Shown here piece by piece: positions 17,478 to 26,194 of a stretch of DNA of 64,000 nucleotides. The DNA is from Desulfuromusa kysingii. Its GTDB lineage: Bacteria > Desulfobacterota > Desulfuromonadia > Desulfuromonadales > Geopsychrobacteraceae. Position numbers and translations under genes: made by a program. The notes under the pieces are model-generated. The model saw only the letters and a list, made by a program, of their open reading frames with translations. It did no database searches and was not told the origin of the DNA. Numbering within the stretch: the first letter of the stretch is position 1; each line of letters starts with the position of its first letter. The stretch lies in the NCBI RefSeq assembly GCF_900107645.1, contig NZ_FNQN01000001.1, positions 517,390 through 581,389 on the forward strand, given 5' to 3'.

Positions 17478-18824
17478 GTGAAGATCATTGATTCTGTTGC
17501 TGGAGTCTTTTGTCATCAGGATTTTGTCTTTGCGGTGCGACGTCAGTCACATCTTCAGGCTTTTCCAGGCTATGAGTCTTTTCCCGGTGGTAAAATTGAC
17601 CGGGAAGACAGTCCTCAGCAACATCCATCCCCCTTTCTTTGTGATTTTGACGGTCAATCTATCCATGCTCTGGTTCGGGAAATTGCCGAAGAATTAGGTT
17701 ATGATCTGGTCGCTGCTATCTCTGCAGGAGAAGTCACAGCGGTTAAATTTCTTGCAACCGCTTTAGCTCCAGCGACCGCTCCGGTTCGTTTCCGCGTGCA
17801 TTTTTTCCGTATCGATCTGCAGTCGCGCCCTTTATTTGAACTGGATGCCGGGGAGATTGCTGCAGGTTTCTGGAACCGACCTGAACAATTACTGGCAAGA
17901 TTCCGTCGGGGTGACGCCTTGATGGTTCCACCTTTCCGCTGGGTCCTGGAACGCTTGCAACGGAATCCAGCCGACTATAACTTGGGGAACCTATCACCAC
18001 AGACGGACGAAACATTATTTGTTCCCCGGTTTGAACTGCTGAGCGGTCTGATGACCCTCTCGGTCCCTTCGAATACCTTTCCACCCGAAAAACGGACGAA
18101 CGCCTTTCTGCTTGGAGATCCACAGGCTCCTCAGGTTCTTGTTGACCCTTCGCCTGAAGCTCCTCAGGTTTTTGAGCGGTTAGTGCGAACCCTTGAAGCT
18201 GATGATCTTGCAGCGATTTTTTTGACCCACCATCACCACGATCATCATGAGTTCGCTCCAGAATTAGCAAAACACCTGAATATCCCTATTTGGTTGAGTG
18301 CAGATACTCTGGACCGCATTCTGCAGAAACAGGGGAAAGACTATTTCTCCGCAGTCACTGTCGAAGTGCGGCAGGCTGGAGATTGTTTGACCACCTGGAA
18401 AGGTGAGAGCGTACGGGTTTATTCCGTCCCCGGACATGATGCCGGGCAACTCGCCCTTGCTCCCGATTCATTGCGCTGGTTTCTGGTTGGCGACCTTATC
18501 CAGAGTTTTGGAACGGTTTTAATCTCAGCCCCAGAAGGTGACATGACGGATTATTATCAGACTTTGAAGCAGATTATTGCCCTTGATCCTGCGGTTATCA
18601 TTCCATCTCATGGGATGCCGATGCGCAGTACTTTCCGGTTGCACTCAACGTTGCAGCATCGAATGAAACGTGAAAATAAAATCCTCACCATGCATGCCAG
18701 TGGAAAAACCCCGGTCGAGATGCTTAATTCCATCTATCAAGGGGTGGACCAGCGGCTCTTCCCCTTTGCTCTGGAAACGATTAAGTCCCATCTCCGCAAA
18801 TTGCAGCAGGAAGGGAAAATCTGA
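17478..18824 (+). CDS. Nudix / metallo-beta-lactamase fusion hydrolase
   Basis: 448-aa two-enzyme protein. Residues 1-165 form a Nudix domain (FPGYESFPGGKIDRED and LVREIAEELGYD), separated by an insert in the box region. Residues 190-390 form an MBL-fold domain with THHHHDHHE near 250, SVPGHDAGQLAL and PSHGMPM. The tail (about 395-448) looks like the winged-helix domain of LACTB2-type hydrolases. The start shortly after nfo follows AGGGGGCTTT. Substrate unknown; a nucleotide or CoA-derived ester is plausible. Confidence 0.85.
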   Translation: MKIIDSVAGVFCHQDFVFAVRRQSHLQAFPGYESFPGGKIDREDSPQQHPSPFLCDFDGQSIHALVREIAEELGYDLVAAISAGEVTAVKFLATALAPATAPVRFRVHFFRIDLQSRPLFELDAGEIAAGFWNRPEQLLARFRRGDALMVPPFRWVLERLQRNPADYNLGNLSPQTDETLFVPRFELLSGLMTLSVPSNTFPPEKRTNAFLLGDPQAPQVLVDPSPEAPQVFERLVRTLEADDLAAIFLTHHHHDHHEFAPELAKHLNIPIWLSADTLDRILQKQGKDYFSAVTVEVRQAGDCLTTWKGESVRVYSVPGHDAGQLALAPDSLRWFLVGDLIQSFGTVLISAPEGDMTDYYQTLKQIIALDPAVIIPSHGMPMRSTFRLHSTLQHRMKRENKILTMHASGKTPVEMLNSIYQGVDQRLFPFALETIKSHLRKLQQEGKI

Positions 18825-18874: not shown

Positions 18875-20656
18875 TTAAGCTTTCGGCCAACTGTCAAAGG
18901 CTTGTTTTTCAAATTTCATTTGACCATCCTTGCCCTGATAGATATTGATCCAGGCATTCCAGTTTTTCCTGTCGATGTCTGGGTAATCAAGACGGTAATG
19001 ACTGCATCGACTCTCTTTGCGCATCAGCGACGCCTTTAACTTCATCTCAGCATTGACGATCATGTTGGCGGTTTCGTGAGCCAAGCGTAATTCATGCAGA
19101 TCCGCGGCGCGGAGCAGTGGCAGGTGGTGGTCGCGCAACTCTTCAATATAGGCGAGGGCTGCCTTTAACAAGCTCTCTTTTTTGATATAGAGGATAAAGT
19201 TGGGGATCATGATCCCCTGCAATGTCTGGGTGACCCAGGCAGGACCGTAACCCTTCTCTCTTTTGAGTGGTGCAAGAATCTCTTCTCTGAGGGCCTTGAT
19301 CTTTGCCAGCGAGATGCTGGGCATTTCCAACCCGTGGCAATATTCAGCGGCTGCTTCAGAAACGATCGCCCCTTGCACCGCTGAACCGGCCAAAGAAGAT
19401 CCTACTTGTGTATAGATGGCTCCAGCCATGTATGAGCCAAGAGCATCTCCTGCCGCATAGAGTCCAGGAATATTGGACGCCCCTTTGTCGTTGATGGGGA
19501 CCAATCCTTCGGACTTATGAATTGACATCCCAGCTGAGGAACCGCCAACGGAACTACCATTGGACATGCCGGGAGGAGGGCCACCACCTTCGTCGTGGTG
19601 ACCTCCTGGAGGAGGATTACCCCTTTTGTTGTTGCCATCACCTGGGGGCGGTCCAGGACGCCGGTCCTTTTCGCTGAATTCAGCCGGGCGAGTGGGACCG
19701 CCGCTGATCTGTTTGCCGGTGTTCCGACCCGGAGGGCCACCAGCAAGCGGGTTCCCCGCCATGTAAGCTTGATAATTCATCTCCACGCCAAGATCATGAT
19801 GGACTTCAACTCCGGTTAAGCCCGGCTTGCGGTCAAACATCCCGTGCCAACCGTCGTAGCAGGCCGCAGCGTTGGTTGCCTGCCCGATGTGGCCGTCGTT
19901 CCATTCTTTACCTGTTACCTTGGCACCTATTCTATAGGCCATGACAGTGCCATCGTGGGTGAGGTCACAGATCGGAAATCCGTTTGGTTTGAATCCTCCA
20001 GCGCCAGAGCAGAGGATGACGCTCTTGGCTTTGAAGATGTGCACCTTGGCTTCATCAACGCTGAAACCCGCTGCACCGGCAATCTTGCCGTTCTCTTTGA
20101 TCAGGTGGGTGATCATGACCCGCTCGATGATCGGGACGTTGCGCTCGTTGAGGGGCTTGCTGAAAGAGTTAAAGTAGAGGGGAGAATCAAAGAAACCCCA
20201 CTCTCTCAAATCTTTAACCCGAGCTAGAGAATGTTCGGCCATCTGCCGGGTAAAAACCGGGTTATTGGTTCCCAGTGCCGAACGGGAGACGGTCGCAACA
20301 AATTCGTCCAGACTTAACTTCTCTTTGGCCGGATCGTAGCTAAAGATCCCTTTGGCAAATGGGGTCTGGCCCGAGGAACCAAGGCGACCTTTGGAAACCA
20401 TCATCACTCTGGCTCCAGCATCGTGTCCTTTTACGGCTGCGAATAATCCGGCAATACCGCTACCGACGACCAGGATGTCTGTTTCATTTTCCTGGTAAGT
20501 TATTTCATTGAGATCGATTTCACGGATATTTGCTTGCAGTTCAGACTCTCTTGCCGAGATGCCTATTGTAGCCATCGCTGCCAGTCCCGCAGCGCCGCCA
20601 GCCAGAGCCATAAAATTGCGGCGTGTCAGACCGTTATTGTGTTTTTGTGATTTCAT
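18875..20656 (-). CDS. Tat-exported FAD-dependent oxidoreductase (fumarate reductase/AprA-like)
   Basis: 593-aa flavoprotein. A twin-Arg signal LTRRNFMALAGG lies at about residues 10-21, followed by a hydrophobic Ala/Gly stretch, so export to the periplasm is likely. FAD motif VVGSGIAGL is near residue 57, and the second FAD-binding block is IPGLYAAGDALGSYMAG. The C-terminal SRCSHYRLDYPDID segment resembles SdhA/AprA-type proteins. Between about residues 300 and 375 a Pro/Gly-rich hydrophilic insert (PGPPPGDGNNKRG, NPPPGGHH) interrupts the region where relatives have a substrate-capping domain. Start ATG 20656 overlaps the upstream stop (ATGA). The electron acceptor is unknown. Confidence 0.84.
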   Translation of the reverse strand: MKSQKHNNGLTRRNFMALAGGAAGLAAMATIGISARESELQANIREIDLNEITYQENETDILVVGSGIAGLFAAVKGHDAGARVMMVSKGRLGSSGQTPFAKGIFSYDPAKEKLSLDEFVATVSRSALGTNNPVFTRQMAEHSLARVKDLREWGFFDSPLYFNSFSKPLNERNVPIIERVMITHLIKENGKIAGAAGFSVDEAKVHIFKAKSVILCSGAGGFKPNGFPICDLTHDGTVMAYRIGAKVTGKEWNDGHIGQATNAAACYDGWHGMFDRKPGLTGVEVHHDLGVEMNYQAYMAGNPLAGGPPGRNTGKQISGGPTRPAEFSEKDRRPGPPPGDGNNKRGNPPPGGHHDEGGGPPPGMSNGSSVGGSSAGMSIHKSEGLVPINDKGASNIPGLYAAGDALGSYMAGAIYTQVGSSLAGSAVQGAIVSEAAAEYCHGLEMPSISLAKIKALREEILAPLKREKGYGPAWVTQTLQGIMIPNFILYIKKESLLKAALAYIEELRDHHLPLLRAADLHELRLAHETANMIVNAEMKLKASLMRKESRCSHYRLDYPDIDRKNWNAWINIYQGKDGQMKFEKQAFDSWPKA

Positions 20657-21294
20657 ACTTTTTCCCCTGTTTTCTGGTCTTTGGACGTGTAGCTGTTGAG
20701 CAGTAAATAGAGTCCGCCTGTTGTTAACAGAGTGATGAAGATGATCATGGGGAAACCGCTGTGACGACCAAGATAGAAGACATGAAAGGTGGCACATAAA
20801 GCGCTTAAAGATGCCAATACAGCATGGAAAACCCGCCATGTTTGATATCTTATAGGGAGTTGTTTGCGGCACAAAGAGGTTACGCCGATAAGTAGCATCA
20901 AGCTCCAGGCGAGAAGACCGAGCACAACCCCCTGACTGGTGAATGTCGTTACGATTGTTGTGAAGGCCTCAAACGGTGCAATACCAGCTTCGAAAAAACG
21001 TGGTATCACCAACGTAACTGGGTGGAGTAGCAGCAGTGTGACCGCTGTATATCCGATGAACTTATGCAGTCCGATTAACGTGCTGAACTTCATTTTATTG
21101 ACAACAGATTGATTGGTTCTCGACAGGTAGAACAGGCTTATCATCAAGCTGAAAGCGACGAGAGTGACAATCGATAATGACTCTTTTAACAGTGTTCGTT
21201 GTGGTTCATTGCTAACGGACCAGATCATCAGTGGCAGAATAATAGAGGCTATCAGAATCTGCAGATGGACGTTTTTTTTAATGTATGCAACCAT
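20653..21294 (-). CDS. Ferric-reductase-like di-heme b membrane protein
   Basis: 213-aa protein with about six helices. Two His pairs, each with 13 residues between them, lie on neighbouring helices (LHKFIGYTAVTLLLLHP and FHAVLASLSALCATFH), the pattern of ferric-reductase/NOX-type b-heme binding. There is no FAD/NAD domain, so it must pass electrons to or from partners. ATG 21294 follows a GGGG ribosome site and sits just after the ferredoxin stop; ATG 21306 is an alternative. Context suggests it links the cytoplasmic ferredoxin to the exported flavoprotein. Confidence 0.8.
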   Translation of the reverse strand: MVAYIKKNVHLQILIASIILPLMIWSVSNEPQRTLLKESLSIVTLVAFSLMISLFYLSRTNQSVVNKMKFSTLIGLHKFIGYTAVTLLLLHPVTLVIPRFFEAGIAPFEAFTTIVTTFTSQGVVLGLLAWSLMLLIGVTSLCRKQLPIRYQTWRVFHAVLASLSALCATFHVFYLGRHSGFPMIIFITLLTTGGLYLLLNSYTSKDQKTGEKV

Positions 21295-21296
21295 TT

Positions 21297-21512
21297 TTAA
21301 CCCCATGAAACGATGACCGGAATGGATTTGTCCGGTGTAATAGTGATGGCATCTACCGGACAATACATCCGGCATAGATGGCAGATCTGGCAATCGGCCG
21401 GATACTTGATGAATGCTTTGCCGGTTTTTTCATCAGGGCGGATCACATCTGTCGGGCAGGTCTGGATGCAAGTTCCGCAGCCGATGCAACCTTTAATCTG
21501 TTTGATGGCCAT
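21297..21512 (-). CDS. Two-[4Fe-4S] ferredoxin
   Basis: 71-aa ferredoxin with clusters CIGCGTCIQTCP and CQICHLCRMYCP. It lacks a signal peptide and is therefore probably cytoplasmic, unless carried out with the Tat substrate. ATG 21512 follows AGGG at 8 bases; the TTG at 21518 is less likely. Its 5' end overlaps the receiver gene by 20 bases. The small ferredoxin plus flavoprotein pair resembles AprBA in layout but is not clearly AprB. Confidence 0.86.
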   Translation of the reverse strand: MAIKQIKGCIGCGTCIQTCPTDVIRPDEKTGKAFIKYPADCQICHLCRMYCPVDAITITPDKSIPVIVSWG

Positions 21513-21957
21513 GTTCAAATCCCTGTAACTGGTAGAGTACTTTTCGATTTTTTAAGTTTAATTCGTAAGATATAGACGTTTTTTCTTGCAGCACATACTG
21601 CAACGAATTGACAAGCCCTTCTAGCTCATAGGGTTTATTGATCACGAGATCAAAGTTACTATCATCGAAGCAGAGGGATGCGGTCAAAGCAACGACGGGA
21701 GTCTTCTTGCTAATGTTATGAATATATTGAGCCAGAATGTTGCCATTGATCCCGGGCATATCGACGTCGGTCAGCACCAGATCAAAGTCTTCGTGATTGA
21801 ACCTTTCCAGTGCTTCATATCCACTATTCACGGTAACGACGGTAAAACCACTTTCTCGCAACCAGATATTCAGCAGTTGCAAGTGGGTTCTGTTGTCATC
21901 GACAACGAGAATCTTATAATGACTGACATCCATCTTTTCATTTTTTGCTGCTAACAT
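21493..21957 (-). CDS. Stand-alone receiver domain protein
   Basis: 154-aa CheY-like protein with acidic pair in LVVDDN (about 20-21), phospho-acceptor Asp64 (LVLTDVDMPGING), Thr in ALTAS and Lys in INKPYE, so phosphorylation is possible. A 30-residue tail follows the receiver, with no output domain. It heads the operon receiver-ferredoxin-cytochrome b-flavoprotein, overlapping the ferredoxin gene by 20 bases. AAAGGAAACCCA precedes ATG 21957. Confidence 0.83.
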   Translation of the reverse strand: MLAAKNEKMDVSHYKILVVDDNRTHLQLLNIWLRESGFTVVTVNSGYEALERFNHEDFDLVLTDVDMPGINGNILAQYIHNISKKTPVVALTASLCFDDSNFDLVINKPYELEGLVNSLQYVLQEKTSISYELNLKNRKVLYQLQGFEHGHQTD

Positions 21958-22019: not shown

Positions 22020-22289
22020 TTATGAACGAGGAGGACCACCTTTGGGCATATCTTCTGGTACGGCAACGATTTGTCCGTCAACCTCTTGACAGGTGGATTT
22101 AATGGACTCGCCTTCCCGACCCGTAAAGGTGACACTGTCACCGACACTTTTTCCTTCGCAAGCGGCGATTGCTTCCGGTGGCGGCCCCTGGGGACGTCCT
22201 TTGCCGCCGCTGGCGCAGCCGACGATTGGTAACAATATGACCAGAGTTAAAATCAAGACAGTCTTGGTCAACAGCTGTTTTTTCATCAT
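22020..22289 (-). CDS. Small Pro/Gly-rich lipoprotein
   Basis: 89-aa predicted lipoprotein with a Lys-rich start, hydrophobic helix and lipobox IVGC. The mature part begins with a flexible RPQGPPPEA stretch. It holds a compact region with two Cys (AACEGKSVGDSVTF and STCQEVDGQIVAVP) and ends in PKGGPPRS. I recognise no enzyme motif. The two Cys could form a disulfide. AAAGGAG precedes ATG 22289 (ATG 22286 also possible). It lies between the EF-hand gene and the flavoprotein operon, all on the minus strand. Confidence 0.7.
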   Translation of the reverse strand: MMKKQLLTKTVLILTLVILLPIVGCASGGKGRPQGPPPEAIAACEGKSVGDSVTFTGREGESIKSTCQEVDGQIVAVPEDMPKGGPPRS

Positions 22290-22395
22290 GAAACTCCTTT
22301 GTGTTAATGGCATTAATTTGTTGATTGGAATCGTAGTGAGAAAATAAGGAGAGAATAGGGAAGAAATATGGAAATAGCCGAGTGACAGTACAAGA

Positions 22396-22484: not shown

Positions 22485-22952
22485 TTAGGCGGTTGCCTCC
22501 AGTGAAGAGTAGGTCACTTCACTTTCGCTGTTGCCGGTTAAGAGTTCAATCAGCTGGCTGATCGTATCTTCGCCACTATTGGCCTCATAGGCAGAACTCG
22601 CTTGTTGTGGTGGTGGCGGGGGTGGTGGCATCATTTCCGAATCACTACTTTCACCACTGACCATCCCTCCAGGATTAAATCCTTGACTGGATAACAGTCC
22701 AAACAGCTCTTCGCCGCTTAAACCGCCATCCCCGTCGGCATCGTATGTTGCAAGTGTTTCTTCAACGTCAATACTGTTGCCGGTGAGTTCTTCTATTCCT
22801 GCGGCCAGCGTTTCCAGCTCGGTTGAGGATACCAGCCCGCTACTGTCTGAGTCCGCCACTTGAAAAACATCTTTGTCCTGTGGTGGCGGTTGTCGCTGCA
22901 TAGAGCTGGTGCCCATTGTCGACATGCTGCTCATGCTTACACTGTTAATCAT
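22485..22952 (-). CDS. EF-hand calcium-binding protein
   Basis: 155-aa Ser/Met-rich protein with two EF-hand loops, DSDSSGLVSSTE (about residues 34-45) and DADGDGGLSGEE (about 70-81), both with the 1,3,5,12 acidic pattern. A run of seven prolines follows. There is no obvious Sec signal. GGAGG lies 5 bases before ATG 22952. It has its own terminator. Position next to the lipoprotein and two-component genes suggests Ca-dependent signalling or structure, which is inference. Confidence 0.82.
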   Translation of the reverse strand: MINSVSMSSMSTMGTSSMQRQPPPQDKDVFQVADSDSSGLVSSTELETLAAGIEELTGNSIDVEETLATYDADGDGGLSGEELFGLLSSQGFNPGGMVSGESSDSEMMPPPPPPPQQASSAYEANSGEDTISQLIELLTGNSESEVTYSSLEATA

Positions 22953-23057
22953 TGTGACCTCCAAAATTTAGGTTGTCTGCTTCCATCTGTTCATCGACGG
23001 TCTTCCCATCTCTTTCTTATCGAACGGTGGCAAGAAGATGTTTGTGGTGATTTTGTC

Positions 23058-23792
23058 TCATGAATGTAACAGTTTGTAGCTTTCTTGCGAGTGTATGGGC
23101 TGTTCGCTAGATGCAGCAACGAACTGGTAACCAACACCGCGAACAGTTTTCAGGTAACGAGGGGCGACGGGATTATCGCCAATCTTCTTTCGTATTCTGG
23201 AGATGTAGATGTCTATTCCCCGGTCGTATCCGTTATAGGATGAGTTGTAGAGTTCGTTGTGGATGCGTTCGCGGCTGACAACGCGACCGGCCTGTTTCAC
23301 TAGCAGCCAGAGCAGATTAAATTCAACCGTTGACAACTGCGCCGGTTGCCCAGTAATGAAAACATCCCGCCTGTTTGCATCAACCGTCAAGTGACCAAAG
23401 GTTTGTACCGGTTCAGGTTCGCAGGTTACGAAGCGTCGCAGAAGAGCTTTAATTTGAGCCGTTATCAGGGCGGTCCCAGCATTTAGCGGCAGGACAATGT
23501 CAGCGCCCATTTCCAAGGCGAGGAGGTTCAGAGATGGATCTGGTTTTTCTGTAATCAAGATCAATATCCCATGATAATCATTGCGTATTTGACGACATAG
23601 GCGTAACCCCTCAACCTCTGGGCTCGGGCAGATCAAAACCACAAATTGCAAATCATCGGAACCGATCTCCGAATGAAGATTTTCCCAGCGCTCAACCAGG
23701 CTGGTTTCGATATTCTCCAGCTTCAGGTTTTGAGTCAGGTTAATGAGAGGTGCTGTTGTTTTGGAGATGATAAAAACGGTCATTGTTCTCAT
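23058..23792 (-). CDS. OmpR-family regulator with degenerate receiver
   Basis: 244-aa protein with an N-terminal receiver-like domain and a C-terminal winged helix (LSTVEFNLLWLLVKQAGRVVSR, RGIDIYISRIRKKIGD, TVRGVGYQF). The phospho-Asp position is occupied by Cys (FVVLICPSPEVEG), and the acidic pair is missing (VFIISKTT), so classical phosphorylation is unlikely. It is divergent from the histidine kinase gene. Start could be 23783 instead; neither has a strong ribosome site. Confidence 0.82.
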   Translation of the reverse strand: MRTMTVFIISKTTAPLINLTQNLKLENIETSLVERWENLHSEIGSDDLQFVVLICPSPEVEGLRLCRQIRNDYHGILILITEKPDPSLNLLALEMGADIVLPLNAGTALITAQIKALLRRFVTCEPEPVQTFGHLTVDANRRDVFITGQPAQLSTVEFNLLWLLVKQAGRVVSRERIHNELYNSSYNGYDRGIDIYISRIRKKIGDNPVAPRYLKTVRGVGYQFVAASSEQPIHSQESYKLLHS

Positions 23793-24110
23793 TGTCTGTG
23801 TTATTCGTTTTTTGTCTGGTTCCTCTGCAAAACGGGATGACAGCTCAGGTAGACAGAAGATCTGGATGTTATCTCTTTCACCAAAGCTTCAAAACAATGA
23901 CGCCATAATGCACAGTAAATGAGGAAGAAATAAGGATTCTGGCCGGATGAAGACATCTTTTTTGGAGGGGAATGGTGACTGCCATGGTCGATGACGTATT
24001 TTCTCCCATTCATATTTCTTTCACATTCAGAAATTATGATTTATTGGTTGGGAAAAAATGCTAGGTTATTTCATGATTTGCCGCTCTTAAAAAGGAAACA
24101 AAGGGTTTGT
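23793..24110. other. Divergent intergenic region, regulator / kinase
   Basis: About 318 bases between the atypical regulator (minus) and the histidine kinase (plus). I see the kinase ribosome site AAAGGGTTTGT just before 24111, but no RNA gene, no clear promoter pair and no strong inverted repeat. Confidence 0.5.
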
Positions 24111-25505
24111 ATGAAACTGCAGATTAGGCACAAACTATTTTTTACCCTCCTTCTGACCAGCATTGTTGTCTCTAGCGGGATGTTCCTGTTCATGCAGTGG
24201 AGTTTTGACCGTGGTTTTCTTAATTACGTCAACAATCAGGAGTTGCAGGAACTTGATCAACTTTCTGAACGACTTATGACCAGTTATGCGGAGCATGGGA
24301 GCTGGAATTTTTTAGTGGGGAATCCTTTCCTCTGGGAAGAATTTCTGCGTGCTGCTGAAAATGAGAGTGCACGGCCAGAGCCGCGTATGGAACAAAGGGG
24401 CAATCGCCCCGCTGGTCTGCCGCCAAAAAGAGGGCCACGGGTCGCTCTTTATGATGCGCAAAAACAGAGTATTTTTGGCCCTCCGGCAAAAGTGGATCAT
24501 TTCCAACTGCAACCACTCTTGTTTCAAAAGGAGGTTGTTGGTTATCTGGCGATTCTGCCGGTTGAAAAGATTTTTGCTTCTGGTGACCTGCTGTTTGTCG
24601 AAGAGCAAACAGAATCCTTTGCTCTGATTGCATTGGTGATGGCGGTGCTCTCGTTGCTGCTTGCTTACCCGCTGACCATTCACTTGCTGCGACCGATCAA
24701 AGAGTTGACAGCGGGGACCCGTAAGCTGATCGCTGGAGAGTATAATACCCGAATTCCTATTATCACCAACGATGAATTGGCACAGCTATCGACCGATTTT
24801 AACAGTCTGGCTCGCACCTTGGAGAAGAACGAAGAAATTAGGCGACAATGGGTCGCCGATATATCTCATGAGCTACGGACCCCTTTGGCGATTCTGCATG
24901 GTGAAGTAGAGGCATTGCAGGATGGTATCCGCCAGCCCGGTACCGAAACATTTGCAGCGTTACACAGTGAAACGACGCATCTGGGGCGATTGGTTGATGA
25001 TCTCTACAAACTTTCCATGTCAGATTCAGGGGCCCTAAATTACAAAAGAGTGACCCTCAACCCTGTTGCTATCCTGACTGGAACCATAGAACTCTTCGAG
25101 TCTCGTTTTGCTGCCAAGAACATCCAGATTCACAACGAAATATCACCAGGCTGTGCACCGCTTCTCCTTGCAGACCCCGACCGATTGCAACAACTGTTCA
25201 GCAACCTCATGGAAAACAGTTTGCGCTACACCGATTCTCCTGGTCAACTAACGATCCGGATGGCACTCGACAAGGAGAATCTCTTCTTCTATTTTGAGGA
25301 CTCAGCCCCCGGCGTTGCAGACGAACAACTCAGTAAACTTTTTGATCGCCTTTATCGCGGCGAATCCTCACGCAATCGAGCCAATGGTGGCGTAGGACTC
25401 GGAATGGCTATTTGTAGTAATATTGTTGAGGCTCATCAAGGCGAAATCAGTGCCAGTCACTCTTCAATGCAGGGGCTAGCCATTACCATTAAACTTCCGC
25501 TATGA
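24111..25505 (+). CDS. Sensor histidine kinase, BaeS-like
   Basis: 464-aa membrane kinase. TM1 is about residues 10-28. A periplasmic region (about 29-165) contains an unusual Pro/Arg-rich stretch EPRMEQRGNRPAGLPPKRGP. TM2 is about 166-188, HAMP about 190-240, HisKA with His in DISHELRTPLA near 253, and HATPase with ENSLRYTDSPG, FEDSAPGV and GVGLGMAI. ATG 24111 is preferred because AAAGGG precedes it. It overlaps the response regulator gene by 4 bases if that starts at 25502. Confidence 0.9.
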   Translation: MKLQIRHKLFFTLLLTSIVVSSGMFLFMQWSFDRGFLNYVNNQELQELDQLSERLMTSYAEHGSWNFLVGNPFLWEEFLRAAENESARPEPRMEQRGNRPAGLPPKRGPRVALYDAQKQSIFGPPAKVDHFQLQPLLFQKEVVGYLAILPVEKIFASGDLLFVEEQTESFALIALVMAVLSLLLAYPLTIHLLRPIKELTAGTRKLIAGEYNTRIPIITNDELAQLSTDFNSLARTLEKNEEIRRQWVADISHELRTPLAILHGEVEALQDGIRQPGTETFAALHSETTHLGRLVDDLYKLSMSDSGALNYKRVTLNPVAILTGTIELFESRFAAKNIQIHNEISPGCAPLLLADPDRLQQLFSNLMENSLRYTDSPGQLTIRMALDKENLFFYFEDSAPGVADEQLSKLFDRLYRGESSRNRANGGVGLGMAICSNIVEAHQGEISASHSSMQGLAITIKLPL

Positions 25506-25519
25506 AATTGGGAACCGTT

Positions 25520-26194
25520 ATGAATAGCAAGATTCTTATTGTTGAAGACGAACAAAAACTGGCTGAATTGCATCGTGATTATTTGCAGAAATCTGGATAT
25601 ACCACCGCATGGTTGGCCGACGGATTACAAGTTATCTCTTGGGTCAGAGAGAACTCTCCCGATTTGATTCTCCTGGATTTGATGTTGCCCGGCAAAGATG
25701 GGTTGGATATCTGCAAAGAGATCCGGACCTTCTCCAGTGTCCCGATTATTATCGTGACCGCTCGTGTTGAAGAGATCGACAGGCTGCTGGGGTTGGAATT
25801 AGGGGCTGATGATTACATATGCAAACCCTTTAGTCCCCGTGAGGTTGTCGCGCGGGTCAAAACCGTGTTACGTCGCAGTGCCCCGCAAACAGACGAAGAG
25901 CAACAGCTTTTAGTCTTGGATGAAGAGCGTTACCAAGCCACATTGAAGGGGACAAATCTTGATCTGACTCCTGTCGAATTTAAACTTTTGAGCATCTTTT
26001 CCCAACGCCCGGGTCGGGTCTTTTCCCGCAATCAGGTGATGGATCTCCTCTATTCTGATCAGCGCATCGTCTGTGATCGGACTATTGACAGCCACATCAA
26101 AAAACTACGTAAAAAAATAGCGATTGCAGCGCCGGAACTCGAGTTGATTCATTCAATCTACGGAATTGGGTATAAATACGAACCGTCGCCATAG
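25520..26194 (+). CDS. OmpR-family response regulator, BaeR-like
   Basis: 224-aa regulator with an intact receiver (acidic pair in IVEDE, Asp53 in LLDLMLPG, Lys in ICKPFSPRE) and a winged helix (LTPVEFKLLSIFSQRPGRVFSR, TIDSHIKKLRKKI, GIGYKYEP). ATG 25520 gives the family N terminus and follows GGGAACCGTT; ATG 25502, overlapping the kinase stop, is the alternative. It is the cognate partner of the kinase just upstream. Targets may include the neighbouring EF-hand and flavoprotein operons, but no shared box was found by eye. Confidence 0.92.
   Translation: MNSKILIVEDEQKLAELHRDYLQKSGYTTAWLADGLQVISWVRENSPDLILLDLMLPGKDGLDICKEIRTFSSVPIIIVTARVEEIDRLLGLELGADDYICKPFSPREVVARVKTVLRRSAPQTDEEQQLLVLDEERYQATLKGTNLDLTPVEFKLLSIFSQRPGRVFSRNQVMDLLYSDQRIVCDRTIDSHIKKLRKKIAIAAPELELIHSIYGIGYKYEPSP

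Follow-up and report, generated by a model that had tools for sequence, protein, structure and literature searches.

A putative exported relative of APS/PAPS reductase with an exchangeable MsrQ-like electron donor in Desulfuromusa kysingii

When a small ferredoxin is encoded beside a membrane cytochrome and an exported flavoprotein, does it feed the cytochrome from the cytoplasm or is it a subunit of the flavoprotein? This question is raised by four genes in a stretch of 64,000 nucleotides of Desulfuromusa kysingii (contig NZ_FNQN01000001.1, positions 517,390 to 581,389; here called the window), which encode a receiver-domain protein, a ferredoxin (FDX), a cytochrome-type membrane protein (CYB) and a flavoprotein with a twin-arginine translocation (Tat) signal (FAD, used below for the gene and its product). 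The reading that we favour, at a probability of roughly 60%, is that FDX and FAD form an exported heterodimer resembling the reductases of adenosine 5'-phosphosulfate (APS) and 3'-phosphoadenosine 5'-phosphosulfate (PAPS), that the two are co-exported through Tat with CYB serving as an exchangeable electron donor, and that the substrate reduced is not a dicarboxylate. An open reading frame (ORF) check of the window placed the four genes, overlapping or nearly abutting, all on the minus strand:

18875..20656, minus strand: FAD, 593 residues, a flavoprotein bearing a Tat signal and belonging to the APS/PAPS-reductase alpha / SdhA superfamily
20549..20656, minus strand: twin-arginine signal region of FAD; R12, R13 and F15 invariant in 20/20 aligned sequences
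19544..19750, minus strand: Gly/Pro-rich stretch in the middle of FAD; sequence poorly conserved, Gly plus Pro content 39–60% in 20/20
20653..21294, minus strand: CYB, a membrane protein of the MsrQ-like / ferric reductase type; two H-x13-H pairs, dehydrogenase domain absent
21297..21512, minus strand: FDX, an eight-Cys, two-cluster ferredoxin without a signal peptide; C-terminal tail conserved
21493..21957, minus strand: a stand-alone receiver domain protein

FAD starts at the ATG at 20656 and shares its first 4 bases with the end of CYB; a longer GTG ORF (to 20872) was dropped, as the homologues do not show that start. The start of CYB is the ATG at 21294, immediately past the FDX stop, and that of FDX the ATG at 21512, which is conserved across 22 aligned sequences and gives a 20-base overlap with the receiver gene. 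Pfam assigned FAD_binding_2 and Succ_DH_flav_C to FAD, Ferric_reduct (PF01794, 1.8e-11) to CYB, Fer4 models to FDX and Response_reg to the receiver. A sequence-only reading of this DNA had described an operon containing a Tat flavoprotein and a di-heme-type membrane protein without a flavin domain of its own. These points held: the order FDX-CYB-FAD recurs at 18 of 24 loci, which is beyond chance, the motif TRRNFM in FAD marks it, as far as a motif can, as a Tat substrate, and the PF01794 match with the two H-x13-H pairs is what a di-heme protein of this type would be expected to have.

Close relatives of FAD were found at 25 loci (numbered with L) in a scan of species genomes, in records named as Desulfobacterota, Bacteroidota, Spirochaetota, Pseudomonadota and Neomarinimicrobiota. 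Matches of some kind occurred in 88 plasmid records, from which Paracoccus seriniphilus (64% identity) and Ilyobacter polytropus (47%) were added. Cultured members with an intact set include Desulfosarcina alkanivorans (L037), Desulfoluna limicola (L055) and Labilibaculum filiforme (L033). All counts out of 24 refer to loci with visible DNA upstream of FAD, namely the window, 20 loci of the scan, and L058, L059 and L060. Left out were L043, L046, L050, L051 and L054, where the DNA upstream of FAD is short, and L057 (the contig of L031); L065–L067, from a search of genomes of the window's family, stand outside the counts. The 20-row FAD alignment omits loci with a partial or broken FAD (L044, L046, L047, L049–L054).

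FDX lies upstream of FAD at all 24 loci (broken in L049) and has eight or nine Cys in 22/22 aligned sequences. In Ilyobacter (L060), two further flavoprotein genes of the same family, without signal peptides, intervene between the ferredoxin and the Tat flavoprotein (L060:5562-8877). CYB is present at 19/24 loci, at 18 of them between FDX and FAD (with broken frames in one, L053), and is missing at L032, L044, L045, L049 and L060. Searching whole genomes for CYB yielded nothing in those of L032, L044, L045 and L049 (the Ilyobacter chromosome was outside the search); the same search gave a match in all four other genomes searched, including a divergent fused form in Oceanobacter (33% identity). 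In this last genome (L048), a larger protein combining Ferric_reduct, FAD_binding_8 and NAD_binding_1 is encoded upstream of FDX, and FDX is retained. Ilyobacter has, ahead of the gene set, a gene for a NapH-like membrane protein that includes an FMN-binding domain. Because FDX is kept where CYB has been lost or is self-sufficient, as in Oceanobacter, FDX is most likely the second (beta) subunit of FAD, in a putative physical partnership. CYB is most likely an exchangeable electron donor and not a fixed part of the enzyme.

The same pairing occurs among relatives of FAD that have no Tat signal. Six of 20 listed records were viewed, and in five of these a small ferredoxin gene adjoins the flavoprotein gene. 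Such relatives share about 27–33% identity with FAD over part of its length. Two of the flavoproteins, from plasmid relatives, were scanned; both lack a signal peptide and score above the cut-off of the NCBIfam model PRK08275, and their ferredoxins are 38–45% identical to FDX over 47–58 residues. PRK08275 is also the best NCBIfam model for FAD itself (1.9e-46, below the cut-off), and flavoprotein–ferredoxin pairs of this type are found in alphaproteobacteria and cyanobacteria. They differ from the present pair in that both of the proteins read lack a signal peptide and that no cytochrome is annotated in the stretches seen, for which the gene table is incomplete.

When a profile of FAD was compared with the PDB, APS reductase (1jnr) came first at 8e-35, and PAPS reductase (8a8o_A) was matched at 5e-26; the FDX profile matched the beta subunit of PAPS reductase (8a8o_C) at 4e-10 over residues 1–59. 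A fold search with a low-confidence model of FAD placed APS/PAPS reductases at ranks 1–4, which adds weak support, the model (predicted local distance difference test score, pLDDT, 53) being too poor for active-site mapping. Against NCBIfam, the 25 models listed of 87 matched all scored far below their cut-offs, the best reaching 158.6 of 587 bits; the score for aprA, the AprA equivalog model, was 78.8 bits against a cut-off of 641.75. By profile and fold, we regard FAD as a relative only of the APS/PAPS reductase (AprBA) family.

Like the present pair, AprBA and the PAPS reductase of Methanothermococcus (8a8o) consist of a flavin-containing alpha subunit of the fumarate reductase family and an eight-Cys ferredoxin-like beta subunit; PAPS reductase is described as an alpha2-beta2 enzyme in which the beta subunit carries two clusters (PMC10322725). 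Unlike those enzymes, FAD is Tat-tagged and has a Gly/Pro-rich stretch between two conserved His residues. APS and PAPS reductases act on nucleotide-activated sulfate in the cytoplasm. FAD appears to have no His at what we take to be the usual site of flavin attachment, and its cofactor is probably bound non-covalently. Among the active-site residues given for APS reductase (Asn-A74, Trp-A234, Arg-A265 and His-A398; PMC2211403), Asn-A74 falls in an unaligned insertion relative to the FAD profile and the other three in an unaligned stretch.

As to export, residue 9 of FDX, counted from the conserved start, is its first Cys in 22/22 sequences, which leaves no room for a signal peptide in FDX. 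In two spirochaete loci, L038 and L040, tatC begins 5 and 9 bases downstream of FAD. The copy adjoining FAD is the single tatC match in the L040 genome, a metagenome-assembled genome (MAG), and one of two in the L038 genome. In Ilyobacter, tatA/tatC likewise lie downstream of FAD. For a Wolinella enzyme, hydrophilic subunits are reported to be exported together with a Tat flavoprotein of this superfamily (PMC2680327), and by analogy FDX most likely travels with FAD as a Tat hitchhiker. That enzyme type, the 8-methylmenaquinol:fumarate reductase (SdhABE/MfrABE) of Wolinella and Campylobacter, shares with our gene set the Tat flavoprotein and has its hydrophilic subunits in the periplasm (PMC2680327); it differs in its Fe-S and membrane subunits (SdhB, SdhE) and in having fumarate as substrate, where the present set has a small ferredoxin, an MsrQ-like protein and a Tyr in place of the carboxylate-binding Arg. 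PMC4148689 is also among the precedents for the reading we favour.

The proposed sequence of events is as follows. FDX (beta) and FAD (alpha) would take up their cofactors and join in the cytoplasm before being carried across the membrane as one on the Tat signal of FAD, as the hydrophilic subunits of methylmenaquinol:fumarate reductase do. CYB, MsrQ-like and probably di-heme, would take electrons from quinol or from a donor in the cytosol and pass them outward to the FDX clusters, from which they would reach FAD and reduce a small non-dicarboxylate substrate in the periplasm. The donor would be swapped between lineages: mostly the short CYB, an NAD(P)H-dehydrogenase-fused CYB in Oceanobacter, possibly the NapH-like FMN-binding protein in Ilyobacter, and none recognised elsewhere.

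Several results weigh against this proposal. FDX matches polyferredoxin domains far better (MvhB, 1e-31) than 8a8o_C. The succinate dehydrogenase (SDH) of Mycobacterium, 7d6v, is nearly as close to the FAD profile (2e-33) as APS reductase, and phmmer with the window FAD alone puts it first (1e-22). The AlphaFold model of FAD is the poor one mentioned above (pLDDT 53), and the FDX–FAD contact is putative. One of the six viewed records of unexported relatives (H3) has no adjoining ferredoxin. Two of the four CYB-less genomes hold broken sets (L044, with an in-frame stop in FAD, and L049, with disrupted frames), and the two with intact FDX and FAD (L032 and L045) are MAGs and possibly incomplete. 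Given the two signal-less flavoproteins in the Ilyobacter cluster, a cytoplasmic use of FDX is possible there.

Of the alternatives, the one that fares best is the chain of the sequence-only reading, in which a cytoplasmic FDX hands electrons to CYB and these cross the membrane to an exported FAD. A ferredoxin that has no signal peptide and abuts CYB, in what is the commonest gene order, agrees with such a chain. We consider it unlikely, because FDX persists without CYB at 5/24 loci (with no CYB in the four genomes searched), stays beside a CYB that bears its own NAD(P)H and flavin domains in Oceanobacter, and has counterparts that pair directly with non-Tat relatives of FAD (5/6 records). Homologous operons without the cytochrome and the ferredoxin, which had been named as evidence against the chain, were found for one of the two: the cytochrome is dispensable, and the ferredoxin is absent from none of the 24 loci.

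The two H-x13-H pairs of CYB, which we take to be heme ligands, are present in 17/18 aligned rows; the exception, L053, has a truncated ORF and a single pair. CYB had no NCBIfam match up to E 0.1, hence no curated MsrQ model was matched, and its neighbour is FAD, not the molybdoenzyme MsrP. With MsrPQ and other MsrQ-like extracytosolic electron transfer systems, it shares a PF01794 protein and an exported partner; where those systems have a molybdenum enzyme or an FMN-binding protein as the partner, the present set has a flavoprotein–ferredoxin pair. Many extracytosolic partners have been reported for MsrQ-like and NapH-like proteins (PMC8238504). Proteins with the ferric reductase domain (FRD), such as MsrQ and NOX, are described as carrying electrons from the cytoplasmic face of the membrane to its outer face (PMC11031084); since this is so, and since the Oceanobacter fusion fits an NAD(P)H donor, FAD is by analogy most likely a reductase.

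Flow in the opposite direction, with FAD–FDX as a periplasmic dehydrogenase delivering electrons through CYB to quinone, seems to us improbable, more so than the cytoplasmic chain. The SDH superfamily includes oxidising enzymes, and no result fixes the direction for the window genes themselves. The Oceanobacter CYB, on the other hand, with its flavin- and NAD(P)H-binding domains, has the layout of the outward-sending NOX and MsrQ/Fre systems (PMC11031084).

In FAD, H256 aligns with a His of SDH and L-aspartate oxidase and H380 with a His of L-aspartate oxidase; both are invariant (20/20), and we take the aligned residues to have a role with the substrate in the SDH family. Tyr415, likewise found in 20/20, falls on the Arg in the HGxNRLG motif of 7d6v, an Arg that presumably binds the dicarboxylate in SDH and fumarate reductase. 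The interval from H256 to H380 contains the Gly/Pro-rich stretch, of 44–77 residues, and has no Arg or Lys that is conserved in at least 16 of the 20 aligned rows. Because Tyr415 replaces the Arg and such conserved Arg/Lys residues are lacking, fumarate-type (dicarboxylate) substrates are unlikely for FAD. An ordinary exported respiratory enzyme like fumarate reductase, with fumarate, urocanate, methacrylate or acrylate as acceptor, would share the superfamily and the aligned His residues, and is very improbable in view of Tyr415, the lack of conserved Arg/Lys and the 25 listed of 87 matched NCBIfam models, all far below their cut-offs; the earlier suggestion of fumarate, urocanate or methacrylate is not supported, on the first of these counts. 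A protective or accessory periplasmic reduction of an oxidised sulfur compound or another small electrophile may be put forward, with low confidence.

Our favoured reading leads to a broader proposal, for which we see even odds: that these genes represent an undescribed family of Tat-carried, APS-reductase-like alpha-beta pairs, with a Gly/Pro-rich stretch, a non-dicarboxylate site and interchangeable MsrQ-, NOX- or NapH-like donors, acting in periplasmic reduction in six phyla (Desulfobacterota, Spirochaetota, Bacteroidota, Neomarinimicrobiota, Pseudomonadota and Fusobacteriota). No paper describing the FDX-CYB-FAD gene set was found in the open-access literature, as judged by title and the start of the abstract. 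If the favoured reading is right, a ferredoxin that resembles a cytoplasmic donor works as a subunit in the periplasm, and an architecture familiar from sulfate chemistry in the cytoplasm has an exported version that acts on a new substrate. FRD/MsrQ-type cytochromes would moreover gain a second partner; MsrQ is described as the only one of them in prokaryotes whose physiological function has been clearly identified (PMC11031084).

FAD was found at E ≤ 1e-60 in 4/44 genomes of the window's family and at E ≤ 1e-100 in one of 395 sampled genomes of its phylum, which is the window's own. Such a patchy distribution suggests gene gain and loss, including transfer. The tree of the 20 FAD sequences groups them largely by phylum, with 7/17 inner branches well supported, and it neither proves nor excludes horizontal transfer. 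Broken copies of FAD, with a stop or frame breaks, occur at 4/25 loci (L044, L049, L050 and L053); three of these records are labelled MAG and L044 is not, and assembly error is possible. A possible remnant of a second copy lies in the window's own genome on contig C11 (L056:8170-8932), where a 60-residue piece of FAD with 68% identity adjoins a fragment that clusters with Lcl_C proteins.

Beyond the four genes, the window contains the following features:

22020..22313, minus strand: LIPO, a small, probably exported protein with the pattern GPPPEA...C...C
22485..22964, minus strand: EF-hand protein with a Pro-rich stretch; XopAW-like but under the cut-off of that family
23058..23792, minus strand: OmpR-type response regulator with a degenerate receiver; Response_reg under the cut-off
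23991..25505, plus strand: histidine kinase, divergent from the module
25502..26194, plus strand: OmpR-type response regulator partnering the kinase

The receiver at the head of the operon, as read from its sequence, retains the Asp-Asp, Asp, Thr and Lys of phosphorylatable receivers, which presumably have their usual roles in phosphorylation. The sequence-only reading had counted it as part of the module. It occurs at 2/24 loci, the window and L031, both of one genus, and was ruled out as a core component. A kinase/OmpR pair is found near the gene set at 7/24 loci including the window, the kinases being those of L032, L035, L041, L049, L058 and Paracoccus besides; the divergent pair of the window may regulate the gene set, a link by proximity only and thus a further point on the debit side of the favoured reading. 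LIPO is present at 10/24 loci (9 of 23 besides the window). A homologue of the EF-hand protein lies near the module in L031 and a weak one in L035, and homologues of the OmpR-type regulator with the degenerate receiver are present in both.

In 66 long ORFs selected automatically from the window there are 22 GPP/PPG/PPP tripeptides, 10 of them in FAD and 6 in the EF-hand protein. LIPO and the EF-hand protein contain Gly/Pro-rich stretches similar in composition to that of FAD, and at several loci the sensor parts of nearby kinases, judged by eye, do so as well.

Other genes recur near the module. Lcl_C proteins were assigned by Pfam in L032, L041, L044 and L055. CotH genes were recognised by Pfam in L044 and by BLAST cluster in L033, L042 and L058, a DUF4956 gene by Pfam in L044, and VTC genes by Pfam in L042 and by cluster in L033 (L042:3015-6816, L033:12199-15914 and L044:10499-17214). 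MacAB-TolC-like genes and Spy-like small proteins were noted by eye or BLAST cluster only. Deducing the substrate from these neighbours was dropped, as they suggest general envelope biology only. At the other end of the operon, and converging on it, a gene at 17478-18824 of the window encodes a fusion of a Nudix domain and a metallo-beta-lactamase domain that has a winged helix.

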